Part shown: positions 20,567 through 32,404 of the stretch, piece by piece | Numbering within the stretch: the first letter of the stretch is position 1 | How the letters are laid out: the number at the start of each line of letters is the position of its first letter | Virus record (IMG/VR): IMGVR_UViG_3300043464_000969 | Coordinates: 1 to 32,761 of that record | Origin: a virus | DNA length: 32,761 nucleotides | Reading direction: 5' to 3' (one strand) | Notes under the pieces: generated by a model | Told to the model about the DNA's origin: nothing | The model's input: the letters and a program-made list of their open reading frames with translations, nothing else | Databases searched by the model: none | Translations under genes and position numbers: made by a program

Positions 20567-21153
20567 GCGGGATGAACGGTTCAATGAACGGGAAGCCGTG
20601 CTGGAGCCCAGCGGCACGGACTCGCGTTTTTGAGTTTGGCTCCGCAGTGGAAACAGACGACGAACGGGAGGCTATCCTGGCGGAAGCTGCGGAACTGGTG
20701 CGCGCTGGCATTAAGGCTGGACTGGTGGAACCGGCACAGGCACCAAAGCCGGTTAAACCGCCCAAAACTCAGAAATACGGCGCAGGATGGCGCACGATTA
20801 ACTGCGCACAGTGCGGCATCGGATTTTTTCGGGGCAACATCAGCATCACTAAATGCGGGAGTTGCAGACTCGGAACCAGAATCTGTTTTTGTGGGAAGAC
20901 CTTCCAGCCGCTCCAAAACAAGACGCAAAGCTGCTCCCCGGAATGCTCTAAGGCGCGACAGATCGCAACCTTTCAAGCAAACCATGGCGCTGACACAAAA
21001 CCCGTGCTTCTTGCTGAATGCATCATCTGCCATCAGATGAAGCCTAGGCGGCAGGCAGGCAGCACCTTTGCTAAAACATGCTCGAAAGAGTGCGCCAGCG
21101 TTTACCGCAAGCAAAAGGGCGCGGAGTATAAACAATCCAGAACAACCAAATGA
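20563..21153 (+). CDS. Protein with three four-cysteine zinc knuckles
   Basis: A 196-aa protein. ATG 20563 (overlap ATGA) is chosen over a longer form that would run out of frame through the membrane protein. After an N-terminal helical part (ETDDEREAILAEAAELVRAG) come three four-Cys modules: C81-x2-C84-x13-C98-x2-C101, C108-x-C110-x13-C124-x3-C128 and C153-x2-C156-x16-C173-x3-C177. Each should hold one zinc. The linkers are basic (QKYGAGWRTIN; KQKGAEYKQSR). A nucleic-acid-binding role fits its place directly before the helicase-methyltransferase gene, with which it overlaps (ATGA). No known family is recognised. Confidence 0.75.
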   Translation: MSGMNGSMNGKPCWSPAARTRVFEFGSAVETDDEREAILAEAAELVRAGIKAGLVEPAQAPKPVKPPKTQKYGAGWRTINCAQCGIGFFRGNISITKCGSCRLGTRICFCGKTFQPLQNKTQSCSPECSKARQIATFQANHGADTKPVLLAECIICHQMKPRRQAGSTFAKTCSKECASVYRKQKGAEYKQSRTTK

Positions 21154-23339
21154 CCTACGACGACTACATCATAGGCAAGCAAAAGACCGTCCGGGATGCC
21201 GGGTTTGAACCTTTGCCAATCATCGCTCCACTGTTTGACTGGCAAGCGCACATCGTGCGTTGGGCGCTTAGAAAAGGCCGTTGCGCACTCTTTGAGGACT
21301 GCGGGCTTGGCAAGACTGCTCAACAGCTCGAATGGGCCAGCCAAGTAGTGCGGCACACTGGCGGCAGCGTGCTTATTCTGACCCCTCTTGCTGTGGCATC
21401 ACAGACTGCTAGGGAAGCTCAGAAGTTTGGAATCGAAGCAAAGCAGATTGCCAGCGGTGACGAAATCACAGCGCCAGGAGTTTGGATTACCAATTACGAG
21501 AAGCTGGAGCATTTTGACTGTTCAGTGTTTGCCGGGGTGGTTTTGGACGAGAGCAGCATCCTCAAATCTTTTACAGGAAAAACGAGAAAAGCACTGACAG
21601 ATGCCTTTTCGCAGACACCATATAGGCTCGCATGTACCGCGACCCCATCACCGAACGACTACACCGAACTCGGGCAGCACGCTGATTTTCTCGGGATCTG
21701 CTCGCCTGCTCAGATGCTGGCGACGTTCTTCGTGAACGACACGTTCAACACTGGGGACTGGCGGCTCAAAAAGCACGCTGAGAGTGAGTTTTGGAAATGG
21801 CTGGCGAGTTGGGCCGCGTGCGTTTCAAAGCCGTCTGACATTGGCTTTGAAAACGCTGGGTACGATCTGCCAGCACTTAACATGCAAACAATTCTGGTGG
21901 ACGCTGACATCAGCACAAATACTGGGCAGGACTTGTTTCGCATTGCCACGCTATCAGCGACGACGATGCACCGCGAAATGCGCATGACCTCGGCAGACCG
22001 ATCCAATGCGGTGGCAAATCTCGTGAATGGATCAAGCGAACCTTGGATTGTCTGGTGTAACACGAACGACGAGGCAGACAACCTGGCGCAGCGCATACCA
22101 GATGCAATTGAAGTCCGAGGATCTGACACATCAACGCGCAAGGAAACTTTGCTGAGTGATTTTAGCCAAGGGCGGGCTCGCGTAATTATTACCAAGCCGA
22201 GCATTGCTGGGTTCGGCCTTAACTGGCAGCACTGCCGCAACGTGGCATTTGTGGGACTTAGCTACTCGTTTGAGGACTTCTACCAAGCTCTCAGACGCTC
22301 CTACAGGTTCGGGCAAACGCAAGAGGTAAACGCCTACATCGTGCAGGCAAAGACGGAAGGAGCCATCCTTCAATCAATCAGACGCAAAATTGAGCAACAT
22401 GAGAAAATGCAAGAGAACATGAAACTAGCAGCAGCAGAAATGACTTTTCAGAAGTCCGAGACAGTGGAAGCAAAGACAGGAGTGGACAGTTACTCAGGCA
22501 AGAATTGGACAGTGCACCACGGCGATTGTGTGCGAGTTGCCAAGACGATCCCGACGGGCTCGATTGACTTCTCAGTTTTCAGCCCGCCTTTTGCTGACCT
22601 TTTTACTTACTCAAACGACCCGCAAGACATGGGAAACTGTGACTCTATGGCAGACTTCATGGTGCATTTTGATTTTCTCATTCAAGAGATCAAACGGATC
22701 ATGCAGCCTGGGCGCGAAGTGGCGGTGCACTGCGTGGATTTGCTTTCCACGAAATGGAAGACTGGATCCATCCAGTTCCAAGACTTCAGCGGCGAGATCA
22801 TCCGCGCGTTTTGGAAGCATGACTTCCTGTTTCACTCTCGCATCTGCATCTGGAAGAGTCCGGTGACAGAGATGCAGCGCACAAAGGCGCACGGGCTCCT
22901 GCACAAGACGCTCAAAACCGACTCCTCCAGTTCGCGAGTCGGCTGCGCTGACTATCTGCTAGTTTTCCGAGCACCAGGGCAGACGGTTGTCCCAGTGACA
23001 AAAGACGGATCAGAGTTTCCAGTCTCTTGGTGGCAGGAAGTGGCATCTCCTGTCTGGATGACAGTCGATCAAGGGCGCGTTTTGAACGGAGAAGTGGCGC
23101 GGGATCAGGCAGATGAAAAGCACATTTGCCCGCTACAGCTTGACGTTATCGAGCGAGCCATCACGCTCTGGAGCAACCCCGGCGAGTTGGTTTACTCGCC
23201 ATTCACCGGAATTGGATCGGAAGGGTACGGGGCGCTGACCCTTGGACGGCGATTTGTAGGATCGGAACTTAAAAAATCATACGCAGAACACGCCGTCACA
23301 AACCTTCGCAACATCGAAGCTCAACCGAGCCTTTTTTAA
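21150..23339 (+). CDS. SNF2-like helicase fused to a DNA methyltransferase
   Basis: A 729-aa fusion. Residues 1-420 carry SF2/SNF2 ATPase motifs: I DCGLGKT (50-56), II DES (133-135), III TATPSPND (163-170), V KPSIAGFGLN (349-358) and VI QALRRSYRFGQT (379-390). Residues 450-729 are an N6-adenine or N4-cytosine DNA methyltransferase with the catalytic SPPF (478-481) before the SAM-binding PFTGIGS (684-690), a beta-class order. I see no nuclease motif, so it is not an obvious restriction enzyme. It may methylate phage DNA while translocating, protecting it from host restriction, or remodel protein-DNA complexes. It is linked by overlaps to the zinc-knuckle protein upstream and the nuclease downstream. 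Confidence 0.9.
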   Translation: MTYDDYIIGKQKTVRDAGFEPLPIIAPLFDWQAHIVRWALRKGRCALFEDCGLGKTAQQLEWASQVVRHTGGSVLILTPLAVASQTAREAQKFGIEAKQIASGDEITAPGVWITNYEKLEHFDCSVFAGVVLDESSILKSFTGKTRKALTDAFSQTPYRLACTATPSPNDYTELGQHADFLGICSPAQMLATFFVNDTFNTGDWRLKKHAESEFWKWLASWAACVSKPSDIGFENAGYDLPALNMQTILVDADISTNTGQDLFRIATLSATTMHREMRMTSADRSNAVANLVNGSSEPWIVWCNTNDEADNLAQRIPDAIEVRGSDTSTRKETLLSDFSQGRARVIITKPSIAGFGLNWQHCRNVAFVGLSYSFEDFYQALRRSYRFGQTQEVNAYIVQAKTEGAILQSIRRKIEQHEKMQENMKLAAAEMTFQKSETVEAKTGVDSYSGKNWTVHHGDCVRVAKTIPTGSIDFSVFSPPFADLFTYSNDPQDMGNCDSMADFMVHFDFLIQEIKRIMQPGREVAVHCVDLLSTKWKTGSIQFQDFSGEIIRAFWKHDFLFHSRICIWKSPVTEMQRTKAHGLLHKTLKTDSSSSRVGCADYLLVFRAPGQTVVPVTKDGSEFPVSWWQEVASPVWMTVDQGRVLNGEVARDQADEKHICPLQLDVIERAITLWSNPGELVYSPFTGIGSEGYGALTLGRRFVGSELKKSYAEHAVTNLRNIEAQPSLF

Positions 23340-30454: not shown

Positions 30455-30702
30455 CCAACGAACAAATAAACGCGGCGATTGCCAAGGTGCTAAAGTACAA
30501 GCAGTGGTATCCAAACTTTGCCACAGACCTAAACGCGATGCATGAGGCTGAGAAGGTGCTGGATTCTGACGAGCTTTTTAGGGGGTACTACTTGGCACTC
30601 TATGACATCACCAAATCAACGCGCTGGCCGATCAACGCAACAGCCCGCCAACGCGCAGAGGCGTTTCTGAGGACGCTTGGCAAATGGGAGGATGGAGAAT
30701 GA
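30451..30702 (+). CDS. Phage ABA-sandwich domain protein
   Basis: An 83-aa protein with the pattern of the phage ABA-sandwich family: a start helix (NEQINAAIAKVLKY), the conserved phrase FATDLNAMHEAEKVL and the C-terminal NATARQRAEAFLRTLGKW. Members are small early proteins of unknown role, frequent in siphophages. ATGA overlaps at both ends. Confidence 0.75.
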   Translation: MTNEQINAAIAKVLKYKQWYPNFATDLNAMHEAEKVLDSDELFRGYYLALYDITKSTRWPINATARQRAEAFLRTLGKWEDGE

Positions 30703-30887
30703 GCATCAGACCCGAAGAAAGATTTCATCACGAGATTGCGCTCAATATTTTGGGCGCTGCATTGGCGGAGGCGCAAAAGCAGCTCCGGGCTGCACTGAGG
30801 CGTGTTGACGCACTAGAAACGCAGATGCGCAGGGAAGGCTGGACACAGGCTGACCTTGACGATGTGGAGCCTAGTGTGCATCACTGA
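30699..30887 (+). CDS. Small helical protein, last early gene
   Basis: A 62-aa helical protein (IALNILGAALAEAQKQLRA; LRRVDALETQMRREGWTQAD). ATG 30699 is chosen by overlap with the upstream stop. It ends 3 bases before the first helix of the structured RNA region. No domain is recognised. Its stop codon lies within the sequence CTGAAGA. Confidence 0.6.
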   Translation: MSIRPEERFHHEIALNILGAALAEAQKQLRAALRRVDALETQMRREGWTQADLDDVEPSVHH

Positions 30888-30890
30888 AGA

Positions 30891-31361
30891 GGACAGAGCT
30901 TGCTAAGCCTAGTGGCTCAAACCGGCGGGCCGCTTATTTTCGGGACGCCGAAACGGGAACGCCGCTGAGTCGATAGGCGTGACACCTCGGAGAGACGAGG
31001 ACGTGAGAGAAACCTACCGTGGGGTGGCTTTAACGCTGTCCTAGAATACGCGCCGAAGGTAAGAGGCATATGCAGACCTGACAGTCGGGAGAGACCGGCA
31101 AACGCGACACCTGCCAACGGGTTCACCCGTTGCGCATGGACCGGGGATGCTCGGTCGACGCAGTGGTGTGACTAGCTGGAGAGACAGCATCCTCGGCAAC
31201 TGAGATGAGACGTTGTGGTGAACGCACACCAGAAGTGGCGTGACAGTCGGGAGAGACCGGCAAGAACTCGGTCAGAGTTTGCGAGTTTTGCCGCGCATAA
31301 AATATAGCAAGACTGGGAACGCCGCGAACACCCCTAGGCGTGACAGCTCGGAGAGACGGCT
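30891..31361 (+). ncRNA. Large structured RNA candidate with five GAGAGA-loop hairpins
   Basis: This gene-free stretch is densely structured. GGACAG (30891-30896) pairs with CTGTCC (31036-31041), closing a first domain. Five units follow a common plan: a variable helix P1, then GACA (GACTA in unit 3), then hairpin P2 with an invariant GAGAGA loop. P2 stems differ but stay paired: CCTCG/CGAGG, GTCGG/CCGGC, GCTG/CAGC, GTCGG/CCGGC, GC(U)CG/CGGC. P1 also covaries (ACGCC/GGCGT, AGGT/ACCT, ACACC/GGTGT, ACGC/GCGT). Unit 3 holds two inner hairpins (31116-31131; 31139-31156); the loop of the second is complementary to 31186-31192, a possible pseudoknot. After unit 4 a 12-bp hairpin (31258-31293) competes with the P2 arm. 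The scale recalls large phage RNAs such as GOLLD and ROOL, but I do not recognise the family. No open frame has coding character. Confidence 0.8.
30985..31361 (+). repeat. Five hairpins with identical GAGAGA loops
   Basis: P2 hairpins lie at 30985-31000, 31084-31099, 31175-31188, 31246-31261 and 31346-31360, all with loop GAGAGA. The matching P1 helices are 30959-30963/30976-30980, 31057-31060/31076-31079, 31107-31111/31165-31169, 31222-31225/31238-31241 and 31319-31323/31337-31341. Units 1, 2, 4 and 5 have GA before P1 and GA after it, which could form tandem sheared G-A pairs. Stem changes that preserve pairing argue for selection on RNA structure and not on DNA repeats. Confidence 0.85.
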
Positions 31362-31369
31362 ACCTGCCA

Positions 31370-31708
31370 ATGAACGACCCGGAAGACTACCAAGCGGCAA
31401 TCGACGACCTGCTCGATCTCGGACTAACCGAAGAGCAGGCCGCTGATGTCTGGGATTGGCACAAGGTGACAGCAGAGGCACAGGCTCAGACTGCCGGAGG
31501 AATTGCGATAGTGAGACTGTTGACCTACCTAGCGGGTGGGCACAGGGATGCAAACTTGAGGCTTAGGCTGAACGCTGTGGCATTTGGCACAGGGCTAGGA
31601 CATCTCACGGGGCACAAGGACATGAGCCAGGCAGCGGCAGCACTGGGAGTCAGTCACGCGGCAATTAAGGATGCGGCAAAGCAGGCTGCACGGGCGCTAC
31701 TGGGATAA
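31370..31708 (+). CDS. Small HTH-like protein before the late operon
   Basis: A 112-aa protein with an N-terminal UBA-like helical part (AAIDDLLDLGLTEEQAADVW), a middle helix (GGIAIVRLLTYLAGG) and a C-terminal helix-turn-helix-like segment (MSQAAAALGVSHAAIKDAAK, near residues 84-103). ATG 31370 is chosen; a GTG start 30 bases upstream would lie inside the fifth GAGAGA hairpin. That hairpin ends 9 bases before the ATG and could control ribosome access. The gene sits between the structured RNA and terminase, where late regulators such as lambda Q occur. A transcription regulator or antiterminator role is inferred from this place only. Confidence 0.6.
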   Translation: MNDPEDYQAAIDDLLDLGLTEEQAADVWDWHKVTAEAQAQTAGGIAIVRLLTYLAGGHRDANLRLRLNAVAFGTGLGHLTGHKDMSQAAAALGVSHAAIKDAAKQAARALLG

Positions 31709-31720
31709 GTGGCACCCACC

Positions 31721-31751
31721 CCCCCTAAAGGAGTCTCCTAGAGGGGGTTTT
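31721..31751 (+). terminator. Intrinsic terminator at the end of the early region
   Basis: CCCCCT (31721-31726) pairs with AGGGGG (31742-31747), with an inner AGGA/TCCT stem, followed by TTTT. It should stop early and RNA-region transcription before terS, so late genes need their own promoter or antitermination. Confidence 0.75.
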
Positions 31752-31894: not shown

Positions 31895-32404
31895 ATGGCA
31901 TACAGTCACAAACAGATTGCCGAACGTTACGGCGTTTCCCGCGGTGCGGTGCAAGGCTGGGAAAAGCGAGGACTCAGCAGAGAGTGGACTTGGCAGAAGA
32001 TCGAAGAATGGCGCGCAATTCACGCCGCGGGGCGCGTGGTGATCCCGCCAACAAAACCGGCAACTCCAGAACCTCAGCCAGCGACACCCGCGGCAAAGCC
32101 ATCCGCGGAGGCTGTAATCTTGCAAGCCGCGGGCTTTCAGGAAACGCGAACCGCCAAACTGCGCAAAGAGATTGAACGTCTTGACCTCATAATCAAACGC
32201 GAAAAGGGCGAACTCGTATTGGCCGACGAGATGCGCGAAACCGCTACCCGCGTGGTGGCAGTCTGGTGTTCCGAACTGGACGCACTGGTGGGCGACCTGC
32301 CTGGTCAACTCGCTGGGCTTACTGAAGCCGACATCCAGCCAAAGCTGCGGGCTCGGATTGAGCTGCTTAAGGCAAACGCTCGGCACAGCATCGACGCGCT
32401 ATGA
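31895..32404 (+). CDS. terS: Terminase small subunit
   Basis: A 169-aa protein with an N-terminal winged-helix or HTH domain (YSHKQIAERYGVSRGAVQGW), a Pro/Ala-rich linker (PTKPATPEPQPATPAAKPSA, residues 52-71), a coiled coil (KLRKEIERLDLIIKREKGEL) and a helical C-terminus. This is the layout of lambda Nu1-type small terminases, which bind the packaging site and bring in the large subunit. The start follows GCAAAAAATACCCATG. Its stop overlaps the terL start (ATGA). The repeats upstream may be its DNA target. Confidence 0.88.
   Translation: MAYSHKQIAERYGVSRGAVQGWEKRGLSREWTWQKIEEWRAIHAAGRVVIPPTKPATPEPQPATPAAKPSAEAVILQAAGFQETRTAKLRKEIERLDLIIKREKGELVLADEMRETATRVVAVWCSELDALVGDLPGQLAGLTEADIQPKLRARIELLKANARHSIDAL

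Follow-up and report, generated by a model that had tools for sequence, protein, structure and literature searches.

GOLLD and ROOL are phage RNAs that are found near tRNAs, and each of them is a single large conserved fold. The put sites of phage HK022 and the nut sites of lambda are found at early operons. In Clostridioides difficile the abiF RNA (RF03085) binds the AbiF toxin directly and neutralises it, both in cis and in trans (PMC12373285). There are precedents for RNA mimicry by phages in pseudo-ToxI (PMC5449768) and in the Racrs (PMC10651486), which are small solitary structured phage RNAs imitating a host defence RNA.

The window is the whole stretch of viral DNA that was analysed, with 32,761 nucleotides, and its map is circular because the large-terminase gene runs across the two ends of the record. 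Its gene-free stretch (30888-31369, 482 nt) lies exactly between the stop of the open reading frame 30684-30887 and the ATG at 31370, two genes from the terminase. The MFE of this stretch is -189.7 compared with -170.7 in shuffles (z -2.8; 0/100 shuffles). It contains an array of one abiF-RNA-like module and five units with the plan GA-ACgcc...ggcGU-GACA-P2-GAGAGA-P2', where P1 is the helix before GACA and P2 is the hairpin behind it. The covariance model R1 was built from 49 rows, mostly units of other phages and only 2 rows from the window. The features are listed here.

30684-30887: open reading frame of 67 aa, directly 5' of the gene-free stretch
30899..30930, + strand: abiF-RNA-like module, outer helix CUUGCU/GGCGGG, internal loops AA and UCAAAC, inner helix AGCC/GGCU; RF03085 19.8 bits
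30955..31003, + strand: unit 1, GA-ACGCC/GGCGU-GACA, P2 CCUCG-GAGAGA-CGAGG; R1 53.7 bits, E 6.7e-11
31053..31102, + strand: unit 2, weak P1, GACA, P2 GUCGG-GAGAGA-CCGGC; R1 33.4 bits, E 2.3e-6
31107..31188, + strand: unit 3, P1 ACACC (31107-31111)/GGUGU (31165-31169) around two hairpins, GACUA, P2 GCUG-GAGAGA-CAGC
31193..31219, + strand: hairpin CAAC/GUUG linking unit 3 to unit 4, conserved in L007, L013, L107, L092, L093 and L249
31218..31264, + strand: unit 4, GA-ACGC/GCGU-GACA, P2 GUCGG-GAGAGA-CCGGC; R1 48.8 bits, E 8.2e-10
31315..31364, + strand: unit 5, GA-ACGCC/GGCGU-GACA, P2 with GAGAGA loop and a bulge; R1 41.0 bits, E 4.6e-8
31370..31708, + strand: gene of 112 aa without PHROG match, the anchor for homologous loci (relatives L245-L251)
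31735..31747, + strand: hairpin of terminator type with TTTT behind it, downstream of the 112-aa gene (consensus match only), possibly the transcript end
31895-32404: TerS (small terminase)

R1 recovered all five units of the window with E values from 7e-11 to 0.0095, which confirms the initial annotation in its claim of five hairpin units in a gap between genes. For unit 3 the model matched the core alone (31154-31192, 17.3 bits), and this unit is also present in L007, L013, L092 and L249. Unit 5 ends 5 nt 5' of the ATG at 31370, and there is no separate Shine-Dalgarno sequence. A covariance model and a search with it had been proposed as the check; homologues were found in other phages. Where the 112-aa gene of a relative is 89-96% identical, an array is found at the corresponding position. 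These arrays have 2-5 units, with or without the abiF module, and among these close relatives the units are gained and lost in blocks. Judged from this comparison, the array is modular and not one giant fold. An outer pairing of 30891-30896 with 31036-31041 had also been proposed. It is not conserved, and since its 3' half lies in a segment that is absent from close relatives, nothing speaks for one higher-order fold.

To follow the unit outside the window, IMG/VR was searched with the pattern GTGACANNYSGGAGAGAC, in which one P2 strand is fixed and the other left free, and at least 120 loci were found. The free P2 strand was fully complementary (five pairs) in 102 of the 120 non-redundant matches listed, while 25.5 were obtained after strand swap. 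For P1, 195 units were chosen by P2 alone, and 142 of them have a P1 different from the common GGCGU. The exact P1 partner was found 8-45 nt upstream in 52 of these 142 units (36.6%), compared with 4.5% with swapped tails (max 10.3%). The earlier claim of an RNA under selection with covarying stems is thus supported for both helices. In alignment A4 the AC/GU at the base of P1, the GA on the 5' side and the GACA on the 3' side are invariant, and the remaining pairs show compensatory changes. The rows of A4 were picked for having both helices, so the strand-swap test of P2 and the swapped-tail test of P1 are the independent ones. The loop is GAGAGA in all five units of the window, as noted before, but it is not invariant across the class, where GAAAGA, GAAGAGA and GAAGAGT are also found. 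A CsrA-type sponge of GGA motifs was dropped as a candidate because it is the GACA linker and P1 that are conserved and not the loop, which can be GAAAGA or GAAGAGA.

The possible pseudoknot of the initial annotation was found in part of the units from other loci; in the five units of the window none was detected. It is of the H-type and joins the end of the P1 loop with nucleotides located 12-19 nt 5' of P1. A general test over 140 nt was weak, whereas the test with fixed geometry was strong, with 20 of 118 units with a clear P1 (about 17%) against 2.5±1.7 expected. In the enterobacterial version a second conserved domain is present, and the H-type pseudoknot shows compensatory changes. There was no Rfam match to the unit, and the whole window at gathering score was also empty (Rfam 15), which agrees with the first impression that no published class was recognised. 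No description of the unit was found in Rfam 15 or in the open papers that were searched. The GUGACA/GAGAGA unit is a widespread and apparently undescribed phage RNA class.

By the tests made, the array is not a member of ToxI, Racr, GOLLD or ROOL. It resembles ToxI and pseudo-ToxI in its tandem RNA units, which differ in number from one close relative to another, in the H-type pseudoknot of a subset and in phage copies without toxin; of these traits, the window itself has the tandem units. However, the GUGACA units have no recognised sequence similarity with ToxI and are diverged, not near-identical repeats. In addition, no toxin gene of the ToxN family was found downstream of the array, where the next gene has no PHROG match, and no R1 match was found beside 26 ToxN matches (Clostridia). 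The array is noncoding, structured, phage-borne and often accompanied by tRNA clusters, like GOLLD and ROOL, but it consists of small modules in variable number without an Rfam match. Unlike the Racrs, the GUGACA unit matches no CRISPR-repeat family, and Rfam searches gave no CRISPR-DR family match to 30888-31369.

The exact consensus unit was found on 83 bacterial genome contigs, belonging to Alpha-, Beta- and Gammaproteobacteria, Chloroflexi, Planctomycetes, Clostridia, Spirochaetes, Cyanobacteria and Bacteroidetes. In class-wide scans R1 was present in 2/274 gammaproteobacterial and 3/289 alphaproteobacterial genomes, centres included, and therefore the unit is not a core host RNA. The 49 viral records usually have one unit site or one cluster each, and the reversed-pattern control gave 0. 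Annotated phages that carry the unit without annotation include P1, P7, D6, cdtI, mEp390, mEp460, phiV10, SPN1S, Tyrion, Cronobacter CS01, Pseudomonas Medea1 and others. In P1 the unit lies between trnI and ban. A blastn search of the whole region against annotated phages gave no matches, whereas a query with the 39-nt core found P1 and others. The mEp390-type homologue is present in 1,914 of 5,426 complete E. coli genomes. A unit class which ranges from Proteobacteria to Chloroflexi, Clostridia and Cyanobacteria and which occurs in the old model phage P1 is in itself a gap in genome annotation.

Homologues follow capsid genes, cI or integrase in some genomes, precede tRNAs or lie opposite to head genes (phiV10, SPN1S) in others, and occur in prophages too. 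In cdtI the order is cI, terminator, promoter TTGACA-16-CATAAT (11/12 match) and array, an example of a temperate-phage locus placed 3' of cI behind a promoter of its own. A role as packaging RNA or in early/late control, as was proposed before, is unlikely as a general function, since these contexts are too varied and there is usually one site per genome.

In seven of the phage loci (L206, L211, L212, L214-L217, which are mEp390, phiV10, cdtI, BUCT708, Tyrion, SPN1S and BUCT711), a second recurrent hairpin, ACAAC-RUGA-AAGCGC..GCGCUU(C)CAG-GUUGU, occurs in 1-2 copies per array. In enterobacterial arrays this repeated hairpin reads ACAAC-UGA-AAGCGC..GCGCUU..GUUGU. Conserved noncoding loci of 400-750 nt were observed in Anaerolineae (L134, L145, L157, L163, L182, L184), with several copies in some genomes and with a tRNA-like minihelix of acceptor stem and T-arm 5' of the GUGACA unit. 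These Anaerolineae copies gave the first impression of a host RNA. In the CRISPR array of an Anaerolinea (L143:884-905) the consensus unit is a spacer. Such a copy is expected of a mobile element, and so it points to mobile elements and away from a host RNA.

The abiF-like module of the window reached 19.8 bits with RF03085 (E 0.71), below the Rfam gathering score of 37, and this match was read as chance until sister loci were compared. The modules of the sister loci have the full consensus CCCGCCAAG..CUCAAACCGGCGGG with about 26-30 bits and different inner loops, and the window module has CUUGCUAAGCC..GGCUCAAACCGGCGGG with G-U pairs; canonical phage copies of abiF RNA have 41-62 bits. L050, L072, L091 and L092 show the conserved outer helix and the internal loop GCCAAG/CUCAAAYCGGC of abiF RNA, which means that the architecture and the conserved loop nucleotides are retained in sister loci. 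The window module shares the outer helix, this internal loop and the short inner helix with abiF RNA. It differs in its score below gathering, in a U-to-C change in the loop, in being without Abi_2, as no such gene was found at the locus, and in being embedded among other RNA modules. By Rfam threshold and by gene context, 30899-30930 is thus not classed as an abiF RNA.

A scan of viral contigs with the abiF motif only gave 84 loci, 80 of them newly fetched. The unit was found at E<=0.01 in 19 of these 80 loci, of which about 13 look independent by eye, and each time it lay within about 410 nt of the abiF-like element. When loci with a good outer helix were pooled from both routes, an Abi_2 gene stood beside the abiF-like element in 1 of 66 loci, which include related phages and are not all independent. 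It means that these elements are orphan copies of abiF RNA.

A tRNA gene was present within 700 nt of the unit in 44 of 265 non-redundant loci (e.g. L072, L097, L109, L127, L196, L198, L205, L207, L310), and all such tRNAs (73/73) were on the strand of the unit. Many units sit 6-7 nt 5' of a tRNA. The anticodon CAT was found in 22/73 tRNAs near units compared with 3/27 far from them. Neighbour tallies with PHROG, Pfam and PADLOC gave no common family as a shared gene partner. Among the neighbour proteins of L122-L204, one gene adjoining a unit in a bacterial genome encodes an anti-defence domain of Acb2/Tad1 type (Pfam PF24729).

We propose, with a probability of about 0.5, that 30888-31369 is a modular array of RNAs which act in trans as decoys for RNA-regulated defence proteins. 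The observations behind it are an RNA class with covarying helices, modular gain and loss, and linkage to orphan abiF-like RNAs and co-oriented tRNAs; we infer that the window phage transcribes the array, that its modules act in trans, and what their targets are. The array would be transcribed within a phage RNA, and each module would imitate an RNA that is normally bound by a host defence protein, so as to occupy this protein or keep it inactive. The abiF-like module would hold toxins of AbiF/AbiD type (Abi_2, HEPN) silent as genuine abiF RNA does, a target suggested by homology, and the GUGACA units would engage another, putative RNA-binding defence factor. The array may therefore work like abiF RNA, ToxI and Racr. 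An anti-defence cassette acting in trans fits because of the co-oriented clusters of small RNAs, the rapid turnover of modules, the many contexts, and the linkage to orphan antitoxin RNAs and tRNAs. More tentatively, and with clearly less than even confidence, we suggest that the GUGACA/GAGAGA unit is a phage imitation of the RNA part of an undescribed RNA-regulated defence system of many phyla, and that phages build changeable anti-defence arrays from such imitations, abiF-like RNAs and replacement tRNAs. If the decoy reading is true, phage RNA arrays are counter-defence cassettes, and the unit could be used as bait for the host protein that it binds. The units in P1 and cdtI make the question testable in E. 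coli.

The following findings run counter to the decoy reading. No host defence locus was found with the GUGACA unit as its own RNA: beside 25 Abi_2 matches (Gammaproteobacteria) no unit was convincing (best E 0.43), and the 26 ToxN matches had none, so that a host source of the unit was found at neither set of loci. The abiF module of the window scores below the Rfam gathering score. Also, many single units end 5-30 nt 5' of a start codon, and the placement of unit 5 fits a cis role within a 5' leader as well.

The chief rival is a cis-acting leader element, suggested by the many units whose 3' end lies directly ahead of a start codon or tRNA. Each unit would then act on the gene or tRNA that follows, through its translation, stability or processing, and the likeness to abiF RNA would be a shared stable hairpin only. 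In about two thirds of the 120 listed matches a plausible start codon follows within 40 nt of the unit's end, the spacing to tRNAs is short in many loci, and unit 5, just ahead of its ATG, has the loop GGAGAG, which resembles a Shine-Dalgarno sequence. However, any intergenic RNA in a compact phage genome is placed beside a start codon, and in clusters of 2-5 units only the last one is near a gene. The loci of phiV10, SPN1S and Tyrion are far from any start and opposite to the flanking genes. The clusters, the usually solitary sites ahead of unrelated genes and the tight linkage to orphan abiF-like RNAs are left unexplained by a leader, and we consider it unlikely, with perhaps one chance in several.

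A reading of the units as sites that RNA polymerase or an antitermination factor recognises, like HK022 put or lambda nut/boxB, has a small probability. The units are likewise short paired hairpins in phage transcripts, two adjacent hairpins split by few invariant nucleotides, with a purine-rich loop, on the transcribed strand and mostly phage-borne. This likeness was judged by layout. But put and nut belong to early operons, whereas the units occur in early, late, lysogenic and tRNA modules alike, as arrays too, and once per genome instead of at each operon start. The cdtI array has its own promoter, and no conserved partner protein was seen among the neighbours.

It is just as improbable that the unit is a self-cleaving ribozyme or a processing signal separating the modules and tRNAs of a stable-RNA cluster. 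Its compact invariant core between two helices, the pseudoknot in a subset and the position between modules and directly 5' of tRNAs would agree with such a role, but most copies stand alone rather than between RNA genes, no known ribozyme family was matched, and no conserved scissile site is evident outside the two helices.

One large RNA that forms a particle or aids DNA packaging (GOLLD/ROOL-like or pRNA-like), the earlier suggestion, agrees with the length, the hairpin repeats, the position near the terminase and the occurrence of GOLLD and ROOL in phages near tRNAs, but it is very improbable, as Rfam gave no GOLLD/ROOL match at gathering score or E<=10, near relatives have 2-5 units and no shared outer helix, single 50-nt units suffice in most phages, and most homologous sites are not near terminase genes.

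The decoy reading is also related to the Racrs by a likeness in L314, a viral contig of 194.6 kb, where a candidate repeat lies beside an orphan abiF-like RNA. The solitary repeat (886-921) is CRISPR-DR34-like and type II-like, with 30.5 bits at a gathering score of 35, and is a Racr candidate by this match. The abiF-like RNA (559-602), with a U-tract, lies 284 nt 5' of it on the same strand and is preceded by a group I intron (172-407). In the window, the open reading frame 21150-23339 (729 aa) has a full-length match to a DNA helicase family and matches to DNA methyltransferase families on its C-terminal part, and it is possibly a helicase-methyltransferase fusion.
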